Positions 43,620-64,000 of a stretch of DNA of 64,000 bases are shown one piece after another (within the stretch, counting starts at the first letter, position 1; every line of letters starts with the position of its first letter). The stretch comes from Saccharothrix sp. NRRL B-16348 (lineage in GTDB: Bacteria > Actinomycetota > Actinomycetes > Mycobacteriales > Pseudonocardiaceae): assembly GCF_001280085.1 (NCBI RefSeq), contig NZ_LGED01000270.1, forward strand, positions 1-64,000, given 5' to 3'. The position numbers and the translations under genes are program-made. The notes beneath the pieces were generated by a model, which had not been told where the DNA came from, did not search any database, and was given only the letters and a program-made list of their open reading frames with translations.

Positions 43620-44488
43620 CCACCCCCACAACCCACTGACCAGCCCTTTCCCCAGTCACCCCACCCACGACCGAGTGATCACGATAGGAGTACCAACCGA
43701 AAACACCGTTATCCCCAACCTGAAACGTCGGTTGAAACAACGAGGCCGCCAACCAACCCCACCCCCAACCCACCCCGGCCCCAGACCGCTCCTCTGCCCA
43801 CCGACCCACACACCGCCCAGCGCCCCGGCCCGCCATCAAGCCGCCACCCACGTCGCTGAGCGGCACCCCGCTCCGCCAGCCGTGGGCCCCGCGACGCCAC
43901 GCGTGGCACGCGCACCGGGCCGTGCCTCGCCCTCCGCAGCCGCCCTCCGCAGCCGCCCGCCGCCCGCAGCCCTGCCCCGCCGCCCCGCCCCGCAGCCCTG
44001 CCCCGCAGCCCTGCGCCGTGACCCGCAAACCCCGAGCGCCACGCCGGGCCTGCGTCGCTCTGGCGTGGCGTCAGCTCACGCCGCCCAGCGCCCTCCGTTG
44101 GCCATCGTCGTGCCAGGCACCCCGCGCACGTGACGCCGGTCCGCCGCGTCTGACATCGGTCCGCCCGACACCGCCGCCGCATGCCACCTCGGCCTGTTCA
44201 CCCGCCACGACCCGCGCATGCAGGTCCCGAAACAACCTCGCGGCGTGCTCCGCCGACCGGGGTAGCCGGAAGTCCGGCTACCTCACCCGTTCGTGTGGTC
44301 AGTCGAGTCCGTGCTTGCGTCGCATCCGCTCGGAACCCAGGTCCAGCCAGGTGCAGGCAGGTACAGGCTGTAGCCAGGTGCCCTCTCGGGCGTGGGGTTC
44401 CGCAACCCGGACGGCTGGCGAAGGCGATGTCGGGCAGTTCGACGCATCCGGGAAGTGTCATCACGCCGCCCCAGTTCGCCAAGGTGGG
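43620..44488. other. Gene-free C-rich region with short repeats
   Basis: About 870 bases without a convincing gene. From 43.74 to 44.03 kb the plus strand is extremely C-rich with low complexity; CGCAGCC and GCAGCCCTGCCCCGC words recur between 43930 and 44020. The open frames on both strands here encode Pro/Arg/Ala runs with no protein features. The first part (43666-43740) is more AT-rich. Confidence 0.5.
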
Positions 44489-58421: not shown

Positions 58422-59920
58422 CGTCGGTGCACGAGCTGATGGACTACGCCGAGGTCATCGAGCGCTTCGACCCGGTGCTGGGGTTGGAGGTGCACGTCGA
58501 GCTGCACACCAACACGAAGATGTTCTGCGGCTGCGCGAACGTGTTCGGCGGCGAGCCGAACACGCAGGTCTGCCCGGTGTGCCTGGGCATGCCGGGCGCG
58601 CTGCCCGCGGTCAACGGCACGGCGGTGGAGTCGGCGATCCGGATCGGGTTGGCGCTCAACTGCGAGATCGCCGAGTGGTGCCGGTTCGCCCGGAAGAACT
58701 ACTTCTACCCGGACATGCCGAAGAACTTCCAGACCTCGCAGTACGACGAGCCGATCGCGTTCAACGGCTTCCTGGACGTGACGCTGGACGACGGCTCGCT
58801 GTTCCGGGTCGAGATCGAGCGCGCGCACATGGAGGAGGACACCGGCAAGTCGCTGCACGTCGGCGGCTCGGACGGCCGCATCCACGGCGCGGAGCACTCG
58901 CTGCTGGACTACAACCGCGCCGGCGTGCCGCTGATCGAGATCGTCACCAAGATGATCCCGGGCACCGGTGAGCGGGCGCCCGAGGTGGCGCGCGCGTACG
59001 TGACGGCGCTGCGGGACCTGCTCAAGGCGCTCGACGTGTCCGACGTGCGGATGGACCAGGGCTCGCTGCGCTGCGACGCGAACGTGTCGCTGTCGCCGAA
59101 GACCACGGGTGAGCTGGGCACGCGCACCGAGACGAAGAACGTGAACTCGCTGCGCAGCGTCGAGCGGGCCGTGCGGTTCGAGATGACCCGCCAGGCGGCG
59201 GTGCTCGCGAACGGCGGTTCGGTCACCCAGGAGACCCGGCACTTCGACGAGTCGACGGGGTCCACCTCGCCGGGGCGCAAGAAGGAGACCGCGGAGGACT
59301 ACCGGTACTTCCCGGAGCCGGACCTGGTGCCCATCGCGCCGTCGCGCGAGTGGGTGGAGGAGCTGCGCGGCACGCTGCCGGAGCTGCCGTGGGAGCGCCG
59401 CAAGCGGGTGCAGGAGGAGTGGTCGCTGACCGACGCCGAGCTGCGGGACCTGGTCAACGCGGGTGCGGTGGACCTGGTGGCGGCCACGGTGGAGGCGGGC
59501 GCGACGCCGGCCGAGGCCAGGTCGTGGTGGGTGGCGTACCTGACGAAGGAGGCCAACGCCCGCGGTGTGGAGCTGGCCGAGCTCGGCATCACGCCGGCGC
59601 AGATCGCGCGGGTCGTCGGGCTGGTGAACGCCGGTGAGCTGACCAACAAGCTCGCCCGCGAGGTCGTCACCGGCGTGCTGGAGGGCGAGGGCGAGCCCGA
59701 GGCGGTCATCGAGGCGCGTGGCCTGAAGGTCGTCTCGGACGACTCCGCGTTGGAGAAGGCGGTGGACGAGGCGCTGGCGGCGCAGCCGGACGTGGCGGCG
59801 AAGATCCGCGACGGCAAGGTGGCGGCGGCCGGCGCGATCGTCGGCGCGGTGATGAAGGCGACGAAGGGTCAGGCGGACGCGAAGCGCGTGCGCGAGCTGA
59901 TCATCGCCCGCTGTTCGTAG
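58418..59920 (+). CDS. gatB: Asp/Glu-tRNA amidotransferase subunit B
   Basis: A 500-residue GatB that phosphorylates the tRNA-bound Glu or Asp and accepts ammonia from GatA. The N-terminal cradle has [20 protein letters not shown] with zinc-ligand cysteines (CGC and [10 protein letters not shown]). [20 protein letters not shown] and [16 protein letters not shown] are conserved. The YqeY-like tail occupies the last 150 residues. A strong terminator follows the stop. Confidence 0.97.
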
Positions 59921-59929
59921 GTGTCTGTT

Positions 59930-59977
59930 CGGCGGTGGGGCGGTGCCGCGGTCGCGGTGCCGCCCCACCGCCGTTTT
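59930..59977 (+). terminator. Intrinsic terminator after gatCAB
   Basis: CGGCGGTGGGGCGG (59930-59943) pairs perfectly over 14 bp with CCGCCCCACCGCCG (59960-59973), directly followed by TTTT (59974-59977). This is the clearest Rho-independent terminator in the window, placed ten bases after the gatB stop. Confidence 0.88.
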
Positions 59978-60389
59978 ATGTCCGTGAAACGGTGCGTCCA
60001 CTCGCGACCGGTCCATTCGCGATTCGTCCTACTCGGACACCGTTGGTCACCATTTCGGGACGGCCCGTGTCCGAACCGGAAATGACCGGAGTGTGATTCC
60101 ACGTGGGCCGGACCACGTGGACTCGCCTTATTGCGGGCCCTGAGTGCCTGCACTCTGTTAACACGTTCGTCCGTTCGAGTGGTAACACTTTCCGAACGGA
60201 CGCTCCCGTGCTGGTCAGCGAAGCTCAAGATCGACTTGTTGGTAGCTCTCGGTATATTTCCACCTCCCCAGGTGCGTCCATCTGTGTCAGGCTTGGGCCG
60301 TTCGGCAGGGCCGGGGGGCCACCGAAACGACCTGAATCAGCCGCCGAGGATGCCCCGATCAGGGGTTCCGTTGTAGGGGAGGCAACGCC
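59978..60389 (+). promoter_or_regulatory. Regulatory region before the GGPYKPT-CHAT locus
   Basis: This stretch holds no gene but several ordered sites. CCACGTGG occurs twice (60099-60106 and 60113-60120), 14 bases apart. CGTCCGTTCG (60168-60177) and CGAACGGACG (60193-60202) form a perfect inverted repeat. TAACAC recurs beside it (TTAACACG and GTAACACT). These are candidate operators of a regulated promoter. The ATG of the next gene at 60390 follows GGGGAGGCAACGCC. Confidence 0.55.
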
Positions 60390-60671
60390 ATGACCCGAAC
60401 TGACCGGAAGCTCGTCGCCGAGATCGACGTCATCGAGGACAAGATCGTCGACGAGGTCGCCGACACCGAGCAGACCACCACCGACCTGGTCGACGTCGGC
60501 GGGCTGGAGCCGACGGGCGGCCCGTACAAGCCGACCACCGACGACCCCGAGGTCGAGCGGATCCTGAAGCCGATGGGCGGCCCGTACAAGCCGACCGGCG
60601 ACCCGGAGACCAACGGTGGCCCGTACAAGCCCACGACCGACGAGCCGGCGGCTGTCACCCAGACGAAGTAA
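60390..60671 (+). CDS. Acidic protein with three GGPYKPT repeats
   Basis: A 93-residue protein with no known family. Residues 1-35 form an amphipathic acidic helix (LVAEIDVIEDKIVDEVADTE). The second half carries GGPYKPT three times, at residues 43-49, 63-69 and 76-82, each followed by T/G-D-D/E-P or a related acidic stretch, plus a degenerate VGGLEPT at 36-42. It has no cysteine and no signal peptide. The leader-plus-repeats form recalls a processed precursor or a protease substrate. It lies 87 bases upstream of a CHAT protease on the same strand, with two hairpins between them. It may be cleaved or bound by that protease; this is inferred. Confidence 0.8.
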   Translation: MTRTDRKLVAEIDVIEDKIVDEVADTEQTTTDLVDVGGLEPTGGPYKPTTDDPEVERILKPMGGPYKPTGDPETNGGPYKPTTDEPAAVTQTK

Positions 60672-60676
60672 TACCG

Positions 60677-60736
60677 GTCACCGACAATCACGGTGACGTC
60701 ACACTGAATGCCGTCGGCCACCGGCCGGCGGCATTC
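60677..60736 (+). terminator. Two hairpins between the repeat protein and the CHAT gene
   Basis: GTCACCG (60677-60683) pairs with CGGTGAC (60691-60697). A longer stem pairs GAATGCCG (60706-60713) with CGGCATTC (60729-60736) and continues through GGCC/GGCC, 14 bp in all with one wobble. They could terminate most transcripts so that the small protein is made in excess of the protease, or protect the end of the mRNA. Confidence 0.6.
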
Positions 60737-60757
60737 CTCTGCCGCTTGTGATCTCAT

Positions 60758-63379
60758 ATGACCGTGCCTGGCGAATCGCGTGGCCCCTCCGGACCGGATC
60801 ACGCCGTCACCCGGGCCCGGCAGTTGCACCGCAGCGCGTTGGACGCGGCCACCGCCGACCGCCACCCGTCCGCCATCCGGCAGATGCGCCGGGGCCTGGC
60901 GCTGCTGGAGACCCCCGGGATCGACCCCCAGGAACGGCTCGAAGTCCGCACGCGGCTGCGGAACACGCTCGCGTTCTGCCTCGCCGAGACGGGCAAGGTC
61001 GACGACGGCCTCACCCAGCTCGCGGGCGTCGACGCCGAGCTCGCCGGGCTGCGGGACGAGGAGCTGCGCGCGCACCTGTCCACGCTGGTCAACCTCAACC
61101 GCGCGGCCCTGCTGTGCCGGGTCGGCCGCATCGACGAGGGCATCGCCCAGCTCGACCGGGAGATCGAGCGCAGCGCGCGCCGCCTGCCCGCGCACGCCGA
61201 CCCCGAGGCCGTCGACCTGCTCGCGCTGGCCCTGTCCAACCGGGGCAACGCGCACGGCGAGGTGCACCGCTACGACAAGGCCGCGCGGGACCTCGACCGC
61301 GCGGTCGAGCTCGCCGACGCGCACGGCCTGCCGCTGCGCGCCGCGATCGCCAAGCACGCGTTGGGCAACGCGGTGCAGCGCGCGGGCGACATCCCGGCCG
61401 CCCTGCGCCACTACCACGAGGCCAACCGGGCGTTCCAGGAACTCGAGCCGGGCCTGCTGCTGCGCCTGCGGATCGACCAGGCCGAGGCGATGATCAGCGT
61501 CGGCCTGGCCGACGAGGCGGGCCGGCTGCTGGACGAGGTGCTGCCGGAGCTGCGCCGCCAGCGCATCGGGCAGGACGTCGCCGAGGCCGAGCTGTTCCGC
61601 GCGGCGGCGGCGTTGCAGGACGGTGACCTCGTGCTGGCCCGGCGGATGGCGACCTCGGCGCAGCGCAAGCTGGTGGGGCGCGGCAGCCCGGCGTGGGCGG
61701 CGGTGGCGGGGCTGATCGCGTTGCGGGTGGACGTGGTCCGCACGCTCGGCTCGCGGCGCCCGGTCGCCGGGGTGGTGCGGCGGGCGGTCGAGCTGTCCGC
61801 GGAGCTGGCCGGGCTGAAGCTGCACGACCAGGCGGCGTTCGCGCTGGTGCTGGCCGCCCGGTTGGAGATCGGCCGCGGCGACCCGGACCGGGGCGCCGAC
61901 CTGCTGCGCAGCGTGCCCAAGACGCGCCGGATCACGCCGATCGACCACCGGATGCTGCTGCGGCTGTGCCGGGCGGAGCTGGCGCTGGCCCGCGGCAACC
62001 AGCGGGTGGCGTTGGCGCAGGCCAAGGCGGGCCTGGCCGAGCTGGGCCGGATGCGGGACCGGCTCGGCGGGCTGGAACTGGTGTCCGGCACCGCCGTGCA
62101 CGGCCGTGAGCTGGGCGAACTCGCCGTGCGGCTGGTGCTGGGCGGCCGGGACTCGGCGGCCAACGCCAAGCGCCTGTTCACCTGGCTGGAGCGCACCAGG
62201 GCCCAGCTGTACCGGTACGACCCGGCCGCGTCCACTGTGGATTCCGAGCTGGGCGAGCGGATCGCCGAGGTGCGCACGCTGAGCCGGGCGCTGCTGCGGG
62301 CCCGCCTCGACGGCCTGCCGACGGCGGAGCTGGAGTCGCGGCTCAAGGCGAGCCAGCGCGCCGCCACCCGGATGGGCTGGAGCGCCAGCCCGTGGGGCAC
62401 GCCGCGCCCGGTCGTCACGCCGGACGAGGTGCTGTCCCGGCTCGGCGGGCGGGCGATGGTGAGCTTCGCGGTGTCCGGCGACGAGCTGATCGCCGTGGTG
62501 TTCGCCGGCGCACGCGTGCGCATGGTGCGCCTGGGGTCGGCCGCCGACGCCACCGAGGGCGCGCGCCGCCTGCACGCCGACCTCAACGCGCTCGCGCCCG
62601 ACCACCTGCCGTCGCCGCTGGTGGAGGTCATCTCGGCGTCCGCGCGCCGGGAGGCGGAGAAGCTGGACCGGCTGCTGCTGCGCCCGCTGGCGCCGATGAT
62701 CGGCGACCGGGCGCTCGTCGTGGTGCCGACCGGCGCGCTGTACGTGGTGCCGTGGGGTGTGCTGCCGACGTGCGCGAACCGGCCGACGACCGCGGTGCCG
62801 TCGGCCACCGCGTGGGTGTCGGCGATCCGCGAGGAACGCGCCGAGGTCGACGGGGTGCTGCTGGTGCGCGGACCGGGGTTGCAGGCCGCGCAGGGCGAGA
62901 TCGACCGGCTCGCGGGCTACCACGGCGACGCGAAGCTGCTCGGTGTCGAGGAGGCCAAGGTCGGCGCGGTGCTGGAGGCGTTGGACGGGGTCGAGCTGGC
63001 GCACATCGCCGCGCACGGCGAGCACGAGCCGGAGAACGCGCTGTTCTCCCGGCTGGAGCTGGTGGACGGCGCGATGTTCGCGCACGAGATCGGCCGGGTG
63101 CGCCGCCCGCCGCACCAGGTCGTGCTGGCCGCGTGCGAGCTGGCGCTGAACCGGGTGCGGCCGGGCGACGAGCCGCTCGGGTTCGCGGGCGCGTTGCTGG
63201 CCGGCGGCGCGCGGACGGTGATCGCCGCGTCCAGCCGGGTCGGCGACCAGCCGTCGGCGGCGGCGATGGCCGACTTCCACCGCAACCTCGCGGGCGGCGC
63301 GTCGCCCGCGGTGGCGCTCGCCGAGGCGGTCGCCGTCGACCCGCTGCGCCGCCCGTTCGTGTGCCTGGGTTCGGGCTAG
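60758..63379 (+). CDS. TPR-CHAT caspase-like protease
   Basis: An 873-residue protein. Residues about 10-470 are TPR-like helical repeats (LSTLVNLNRAALLCRVGRID, LALSNRGNAHGEVHRYDKAA, AIAKHALGNAVQRAGDIPAA). Residues about 540-870 form a CHAT domain of the caspase/separase clan. The catalytic His is in ELAHIAAHGEHEPENALFSR (about H753), and the Cys is in HQVVLAACELALNRVRPGDE (about C793), with the usual GFAGALLAGGARTVIAASSR ending. Both dyad residues are intact. TPR-CHAT enzymes are cytoplasmic effectors or processing proteases whose TPR part senses a partner. The small repeat protein encoded just upstream is the obvious candidate partner. No nuclease or CRISPR gene is nearby. Confidence 0.9.
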   Translation: MTVPGESRGPSGPDHAVTRARQLHRSALDAATADRHPSAIRQMRRGLALLETPGIDPQERLEVRTRLRNTLAFCLAETGKVDDGLTQLAGVDAELAGLRDEELRAHLSTLVNLNRAALLCRVGRIDEGIAQLDREIERSARRLPAHADPEAVDLLALALSNRGNAHGEVHRYDKAARDLDRAVELADAHGLPLRAAIAKHALGNAVQRAGDIPAALRHYHEANRAFQELEPGLLLRLRIDQAEAMISVGLADEAGRLLDEVLPELRRQRIGQDVAEAELFRAAAALQDGDLVLARRMATSAQRKLVGRGSPAWAAVAGLIALRVDVVRTLGSRRPVAGVVRRAVELSAELAGLKLHDQAAFALVLAARLEIGRGDPDRGADLLRSVPKTRRITPIDHRMLLRLCRAELALARGNQRVALAQAKAGLAELGRMRDRLGGLELVSGTAVHGRELGELAVRLVLGGRDSAANAKRLFTWLERTRAQLYRYDPAASTVDSELGERIAEVRTLSRALLRARLDGLPTAELESRLKASQRAATRMGWSASPWGTPRPVVTPDEVLSRLGGRAMVSFAVSGDELIAVVFAGARVRMVRLGSAADATEGARRLHADLNALAPDHLPSPLVEVISASARREAEKLDRLLLRPLAPMIGDRALVVVPTGALYVVPWGVLPTCANRPTTAVPSATAWVSAIREERAEVDGVLLVRGPGLQAAQGEIDRLAGYHGDAKLLGVEEAKVGAVLEALDGVELAHIAAHGEHEPENALFSRLELVDGAMFAHEIGRVRRPPHQVVLAACELALNRVRPGDEPLGFAGALLAGGARTVIAASSRVGDQPSAAAMADFHRNLAGGASPAVALAEAVAVDPLRRPFVCLGSG

Positions 63380-63474
63380 TGGAATTGACCAGCCGTTCGA
63401 CCGGTTGACCGGGATCACCCGCACCCACTAGTCAGGGTGGAGGAGTTCTTCGGCGATCACCCCAAGGGGGCCCG

Positions 63475-64000
63475 GTGCGCTGGTTGACGCTCACGGTGCT
63501 GTTGCTGGCCACGATGACCACCCCCGCGACCGCCGCGCCCGCGGTCGGCCGGGCGCACGAGCCGGGCAACGGTCCCGAGCGCAACCAGGTCGCCGCCGTC
63601 GACCCGCCGCTGCACGCCACCGCGCGCGGCGACAACTGGCCCGACGCCAACCCCGGCTACCCGCGCCGCACGCTGCTGCGCGGCTACCCGGAGGACCCGG
63701 CCGACCGGGCGATCAAGCTCGGCCTCGCGCCGTACCACGCGCTCGCGCCGCGGCTCAACGACCTGCAACGGCGCAGCGACCGGGTGTCCGTCGAGGTCGT
63801 CGGCCGGTCGACGGCGGGCCGCGACCTCTACCTGGTCACGCTCACCGCGCCGGAGAGCCCCGCGGAGACCCGCAGGCAGGACGCGTGGCGCGACAAGATC
63901 GAGAACGACCCGACCGCCGCCGCCCGCGACATCTTCCTCCGCACCGGCTACAAGGCGCCGGTGTGGATCAACGCCAACATCCACGGCGACGAGTGGGAGG
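63475..64000 (+). CDS. Secreted M14 zinc carboxypeptidase, N-terminal part
   Basis: The first 175 residues of an exported metallocarboxypeptidase cut off by the window edge. The GTG at 63475 follows AAGGGGG. The signal peptide is about residues 1-22 (WLTLTVLLLATMTTPATAAP). The M14 fold starts with VEVVGRSTAGRDLYLVTLTA, and the zinc motif begins with WINANIHGDEWE (H-x-x-E). It would trim C-terminal residues from peptides outside the cell. It lies 95 bases after the CHAT gene on the same strand. Catalytic residues downstream are not visible. Confidence 0.88.
   Translation, partial: MRWLTLTVLLLATMTTPATAAPAVGRAHEPGNGPERNQVAAVDPPLHATARGDNWPDANPGYPRRTLLRGYPEDPADRAIKLGLAPYHALAPRLNDLQRRSDRVSVEVVGRSTAGRDLYLVTLTAPESPAETRRQDAWRDKIENDPTAAARDIFLRTGYKAPVWINANIHGDEWE

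Follow-up and report, generated by a model that had tools for sequence, protein, structure and literature searches.

Analysis of a 64,000-nucleotide stretch of DNA from Saccharothrix sp. NRRL B-16348, referred to here as the window, identified a gene for a small acidic protein with three copies of the motif GGPYKPT directly upstream of a gene for a TPR-CHAT protein, a putative protease. The same gene order was found in all 24 genomes of the Saccharothrix group and for all 92 distinct CHAT proteins of a wider sampled clade, and these counts, together with purifying selection on the repeat codons, place the pairing beyond chance and identify the small protein as a dedicated partner, as had been claimed in an earlier reading made from the sequence alone (the sequence-only reading). 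In a proposal that seems to us evenly balanced, the small protein is a motif ligand dedicated to the TPR-CHAT protease and probably its substrate, both binding and cleavage being predicted.

The small protein and the TPR-CHAT protein

The small gene (positions 60390-60671, + strand) encodes 93 amino acids with an isoelectric point (pI) of 4.24 and a net charge of -10, and its product is probably disordered, judged from composition. The GGPYKPT copies lie at residues 43, 63 and 76 (60516-60536, 60576-60596 and 60615-60635, respectively, all + strand), the third in synonymously different codons. No hydrophobic signal was apparent by eye in the N-terminus, MTRTDRKLVAEIDVIEDKIV. A match of this protein to UBact (E 0.04) was under the cut-off and was taken as chance.

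The TPR-CHAT gene (60758-63379, + strand; 873 aa) starts 86 nt after the small gene. Residues 631-857 (62648-63328, + strand) matched the CHAT domain, Pfam PF12770, at 98.8 bits (cut-off 24), and the catalytic dyad, assigned by homology, consists of His753 (codon 63014-63016, + strand) and Cys793 (codon 63134-63136, + strand). His749, His753 and Cys793 were invariant across 91/91 aligned relatives. By both domain score and dyad, the protein is a member of the CHAT family and a putative protease. Coordinates, Pfam and alignment thus bear out the arrangement given in the sequence-only reading, namely an acidic protein with three GGPYKPT copies directly upstream of a TPR-CHAT protein with an intact His/Cys dyad. 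Pfam matches to TPR, at about residues 155-222, ranged from just under to well under the cut-offs (TPR_1, 27.6 versus 27.8 bits), and in the predicted structure one half of the protein is formed by long helical repeats. This model, built from 91 sequences (an earlier model from 10 sequences was poor, with a predicted local distance difference test score, pLDDT, of 71.4), resembles Csx29 and separase combined with a TPR of the peptide-receptor type.

Conservation of the pairing

A search of 40 related genomes with the small protein gave a match in 18, all inside the 24-genome Saccharothrix group, and for all 20 matches the next gene downstream was the orthologous CHAT gene. Small-protein homologues lacking a CHAT neighbor, which the sequence-only reading had named as evidence against a dedicated pair, were therefore absent among these 20 matches. 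The orthologous CHAT gene was present in every genome of the genus group with the small protein read directly upstream, including the six genomes missed by the search, which carry drifted motifs (GGPYQTH, GGPYSTH, GGPYTSY and DGPYKPH). Apart from the window itself, all 23 genus loci tested had gatB ahead of the pair, as did 9 of the 23 loci of other genera, for which the upstream sequence covered just 1.5 kb. This constant gatB-side locus points to vertical inheritance.

In a tree of CHAT proteins with 158 rows, one group of 116 rows (Shimodaira-Hasegawa-like approximate likelihood ratio test, SH-aLRT, 100) comprised the 92 distinct CHATs mentioned above, each with a small acidic protein of 52-145 aa (pI 4.05-6.11) directly upstream, and within this clade sample the pairing was found at more than one chromosomal locus. 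The named loci are the best 80 of 167 relatives from a clade-based query, so that the sample leans to the clade, together with further CHAT loci from additional genomes; the upstream gene was read for only part of the wider CHAT matches. A class-wide search gave a match at threshold in 11 of 246 genomes. The database protein search covered the window's two proteins, 120 of the 391 CHAT matches being listed. The tree was a quick build, midpoint-rooted, with SH-aLRT as the only support and long branches flagged outside the clade, and it kept 158 of 161 rows (left out were L050, in which the region was cut, and L183 and L185, with matches of <650 aa).

For the 42 rows outside the clade, the gene directly upstream was CpReg-like in 29 and an S8 subtilase in 7, and no recognized partner was present in 6 (L170, L174, L177, L178, L184 and L188). 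The CpReg, S8 and sigma labels are regular-expression calls with hand corrections, Pfam having been applied only to the sigma and CpReg proteins of L134. A small open reading frame (ORF) rule alone called L171, L177, L184 and L188 small; by hand, L171 was reassigned to CpReg and the others to the rows with no partner. The CpReg label of L070 and L105 in the tree is wrong, both having a GPVSHQ repeat protein. The small proteins of L069, L070, L105 and L157 were assigned by hand, and some ORF starts were trimmed.

Motif diversity and selection

In the clade survey, motif families tracked CHAT subclades. GGPY types were found in Saccharothrix, Actinosynnema, Umezawaea and Actinokineospora; GPVHH (including GPVHHQ), GPVSHQ, GGYHHD and GTYPFD types in Kibdelosporangium, Actinocrispum and relatives; GPVQQD in L069; CCG types in Lentzea; and CxGGC types in Amycolatopsis and in a second Saccharothrix pair (paralogue B). 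Most GGPY- and GPV-type proteins carry their motif more than once. Where both Saccharothrix pairs were read, in 13 genomes, their motifs were unrelated. An SLH match of the L105 small protein (22.6 bits, cut-off 20.8, no single stretch passing) was taken as chance.

In paralogue B (L044-L057; G000:C112:162000-171000 and others), the small protein is often His-rich and ends in CxGGGC-type motifs, a composition suggestive of possible metal binding.

Codon comparisons among repeat copies within the 24 genus proteins gave at least 58 synonymous versus 4 nonsynonymous events (about 27% synonymous expected under neutrality; p 1.6e-28), although the first four residues were invariable in the search pattern, a constraint that biased nonsynonymous counts low, and p-values are overstated because related genomes share ancestry. 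At the three free motif positions alone, the counts were 19 synonymous versus 4 nonsynonymous (p 2e-8). Among six close species, synonymous and nonsynonymous events numbered 8 and 0 in the repeats, 21 and 36 in the linkers and 6 and 7 in the N-terminus. Identical copies had also diverged synonymously in other lineages, for which the patterns fix most letters. Near-copies outside the search pattern were noted in L036 (GGVVKLA) and L035 (GGLPKPT). These codon counts indicate that copies within one protein are held alike by purifying selection.

The GGPYKPT coding pattern was confined to the small gene in its own 10.9-Mb genome (3/3 matches), and GGPFKTT was likewise confined to the small gene in scans of two other genomes (6/6 matches in G015, 5/5 in G010). 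The exact motif is thus no general cleavage tag in the three genomes scanned. The sequence-only reading had taken GGPYKPT as the unit of recognition or cleavage; this spelling is just one lineage's version of a motif that changes.

Intergenic hairpin and flanking elements

An unbroken 14-pair RNA hairpin with one G-U pair lies between the small gene and the CHAT gene (60706-60736, + strand), and the whole gap from small-gene stop to CHAT start in the window folds at -41.8 kcal/mol (z -5.77, 0/200 shuffles as stable). Surveyed gaps, measured to the start of the protein match and thus possibly including some CHAT codons, were at least 50 nt long in 77 of the 92 distinct loci, with z < -2 (40 shuffles each) in all of these but L053, L069 and L145 (74/77). 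A perfect stem of at least 10 pairs was present in 61 of 83 gaps tested as opposed to 7% of shuffles, and the stems had 52 different left arms, the structure being kept as the sequence changed. Rfam gave zero matches across 59900-63600. The presence of a hairpin between the genes in most loci points to attenuation and suggests that the small protein outnumbers the protease.

Upstream of the small gene, a conserved block of sequence, TGTGTCAGGCTTGGGCCGTTCG (60283-60304, + strand), resembles blocks ahead of the paralogue B and Amycolatopsis pairs and may be a shared promoter or operator. A stricter form of this block, defined by a regular expression that misses the window's own form, occurred ahead of CHAT in 22/94 loci as opposed to 1.5% of random 800-base windows. 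A regulon based on the block was considered and rejected, a single match having been found in the genome at 3 or fewer mismatches. A sigma-70-like promoter match (9/12) was noted at 60231-60258 (+ strand; 1 found versus a mean of 0.0 in shuffles), and a terminator-like stem stands directly after gatB, ahead of the pair, at 59930-59973 (+ strand; 2 sites in the region versus 0.9 expected, weak alone).

Downstream of CHAT, a gene for an M14 zinc carboxypeptidase with a signal-like N-terminus, as judged by eye, occupies 63475-64000 and is cut by the window end; such a gene follows CHAT in many Saccharothrix and Lentzea loci. Elsewhere in the window, a short CCCGCAGCCCTGC-like direct repeat with 13-nt spacing was noted at 43963-44014.

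Related operons outside the clade

In Pseudonocardiaceae, CHAT genes outside the clade were preceded by a sigma-70-family gene and a CpReg-like gene, as called by regular expression and, for L134, checked with Pfam. The L134 sigma factor matched Sigma70_r2 (E 2.4e-11) and, from its size, appears to be of the extracytoplasmic function (ECF) type; the L134 CpReg-like protein was under the Pfam cut-off (19.9 versus 32.3 bits). Of the sigma-bearing loci of this family, 14 had upstream sequence of 1.9 kb or more, and 13 of these encoded a motif protein of similar design three or four genes upstream of CHAT, with at least two motif copies in 7 of the 13. Upstream of sigma were GAWDPNTPP x8 (L134), GNWSPNTPP x8 (L130), GVYDPNTPP x8 (L166), GWDPYxPP x7 (L150) and GNWEPN x4 (L144), all in proteins with an additional C-terminal domain, as well as GMGHPD x2 (L149) and GSHQ x3 (L187); single motifs were seen by eye in L132, L140, L148, L154, L163 and L167. 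The fourteenth locus, L186, had an S8 subtilase gene ahead of its sigma and CpReg genes. An I42 (chagasin) inhibitor gene stood between the repeat protein and sigma genes in L130, L144 and L166 (E 2e-14 to 6.6e-18). The Amycolatopsis operons, in the order repeat protein, (I42), sigma, CpReg-like and TPR-CHAT, span L134:3924-5940, L130:3351-4624, L144:3722-5889 and L166:3671-4738 and represent a possible regulated-proteolysis module. In Actinokineospora (L136, L151, L159, L162 and L164), S8 was directly upstream of CHAT and no sigma motif was found, while CHAT operons of other families (L169, L176, L179, L181 and L182) contained S8 subtilase, sigma, CpReg and CHAT, with the S8 gene ahead of sigma and CpReg.

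These findings bear on two further claims of the sequence-only reading. CHAT homologues with an unrelated gene upstream had been named as evidence against a dedicated pair, and to the letter the 42 rows outside the clade are such evidence, whereas in 13 of the 14 sigma-bearing loci a similar motif protein stands further upstream. The claim of a new two-gene system needs to be widened, since the similar motif proteins of the sigma operons make the window pair look less like an isolated invention than like a reduced version of a more extensive family, the direction of this change being inferred. The sigma factor of these sister operons suggests that the module ancestrally governed transcription through regulated proteolysis.

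Proposed function and alternatives

As we envisage it, the small and probably disordered protein would be produced in excess over the protease, and its motif copies would bind the TPR superhelix, the CHAT cleft or both in its own TPR-CHAT partner, by which it would be presented as a multivalent dedicated substrate. Some signal would then trigger the protease, with cleavage of the small protein as output or switch. On the branch that includes the window, the neighboring sigma and CpReg genes would have been lost, and the sister operons make a Craspase-like logic of protease, partner and sigma factor plausible.

Several results weigh against this proposal. The CxGGC and CCG small proteins are mostly not repeats and have no obvious motif in common with GGPYKPT, so that homology of these Cys-type proteins rests on position, size and charge, and even among GGPY-type proteins 3/29 have a single motif copy. 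Co-change of motif and CHAT residues was unsupported, as the CHAT partner of the DGPYKPH protein has 5 class-specific residues in common with K-motif CHATs and 13 with others; columns 27 and 72 of the CHAT alignment, both in TPR-N, were the only ones that separated motif classes, and faster change in TPR-N may be relaxed constraint. Matches to TPR folds are common and by themselves no sign of binding. The selection p-values are, as noted, too strong. With regard to the hairpin, 15/92 gaps, mostly from Lentzea, were <50 nt and were not scored, and five longer Lentzea gaps (85-97 nt) hold perfect stems of just 7-9 pairs.

An inhibitory, antitoxin-like role comes next in likelihood but seems to us rather unlikely. 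In this case the excess small protein would act as a pseudosubstrate lodged in the TPR groove or the active site, and a dangerous protease would stay off until the small protein is itself degraded. Such a role would suit a small acidic gene ahead of a larger enzyme gene and the excess hinted at by the hairpin, I42 genes in three related operons may mark inhibition as a theme, and separase-securin entries occur among the structural matches of the CHAT model. However, the locus is core to the genus, unlike a patchy and mobile one, a pseudosubstrate inhibitor would not usually have several identical sites, and in L130, L144 and L166 an I42 gene accompanies the repeat protein, so that inhibition there may already be covered. 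We consider it unlikely that the repeats are cut by CHAT into short peptides that form the product, whether a signal or a multi-core precursor like those of ribosomally synthesized and post-translationally modified peptides (RiPPs), despite the leader-like N-terminus followed by repeated, lineage-variable units, the hairpin that separates the small gene from the enzyme gene, and the similarity in fold of the TPR part to the pheromone receptors Rap and NprR. No signal peptide was seen by eye, single-copy proteins exist, and across 20 representative loci no family but CHAT was common to more than 7 (flanking ORFs of at least 150 aa, among which lineage-specific enzymes would be missed).

It is more improbable still that the multivalent motif protein clusters and activates TPR-CHAT as a scaffold, the real substrate being another protein. 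Repeated short motifs beside a TPR protein are what such a scaffold would look like, and confinement of the motif to the small protein in three genomes means that other proteins there are without such a cleavage tag; against this stand the single-copy versions and the hairpin-based excess of small protein, which would dilute clustering. That the two are chance or merely operonic neighbors without interaction we regard as very improbable. The negative co-change test would fit this explanation and the pair is known here from sequence alone, but it would lead one to expect neither a pairing that holds for 92/92 CHAT proteins, and at more than one place in the chromosome, nor selection on the motif.

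Among CHAT-type proteases, a group that includes separase and the Csx29 of Craspase, few bacterial members have known partners. The sister operons, which contain a sigma factor and in three cases also an I42 inhibitor, suggest that regulated proteolysis extends beyond CRISPR. The dozens of apparent cognate protease-motif pairs, including paralogous pairs in single genomes, make motif specificity testable by swaps, and mutually insulated protease-tag pairs could result. Among the open-access titles and abstract openings listed, none described the pairing or the Amycolatopsis operon module, most subscription papers lying outside the search, and this protease-partner pair may be undescribed so far.

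Comparison with known systems

In Craspase, a type III-E CRISPR system with Csx29, Csx30 and CASP-sigma, the CHAT protease Csx29 cuts Csx30, a protein that holds an ECF sigma factor in check (PMC10028731). The likeness extends to the TPR-CHAT fold, the His/Cys dyad, a dedicated partner gene close by and, in the system as a whole, an ECF sigma factor, comparable to the sigma gene of the sister operons, while Csx30, a folded protein of about 565 aa, differs from the small repeat protein found here (PMC10028731). Further differences were that a direct-repeat scan of the window gave no CRISPR-like array, in agreement with the sequence-only reading (Cas7-11 was not searched for), and that the TPR-CHAT protein scored 21.7 bits with the NCBIfam Csx29 model, far under its cut-off of 300. 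PADLOC, run on three proteins, gave zero matches. HetF, needed for development in heterocyst-forming cyanobacteria, is likewise a CHAT-domain putative protease of a multicellular bacterium (PMC8406250); compared by description only, it differs in that no small repeat partner was found for it in the accessible text (PMC8406250).

The transmembrane anti-sigma factor DdvA (8rw5, 8rot_A), a structural match known by title, differs as a transmembrane protein, and toxin-antitoxin systems differ in their patchy, mobile distribution from a locus present throughout the genus with gatB upstream. The Rap-Phr and NprR-NprX cassettes, known here from structure titles, are alike in having a TPR superhelix of similar fold and a TPR gene adjoining a small peptide gene. 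Their peptides are secreted and then re-imported, whereas the output domain here is a protease and no signal peptide was seen by eye. In separase, a CHAT-type domain that superposes well on the model (5fc2_B, 302 residues at 2.8 A) likewise lies behind helical repeats, and the separase-securin/SCC1 system, known here from PDB titles, also has protein partners. Securin and SCC1 have short motifs. Separase is eukaryotic, identity in the aligned parts is 10-16% and the partners are unrelated. A broader idea, possible in our view but doubtful, is that each of these proteases reads a private short-motif code on its own partner, with receptor and code drifting together by lineage and paralogous pairs insulated from each other, and that control of a sigma factor was the original task of the module, which would make it a CRISPR-free parallel to both Craspase and securin-separase.

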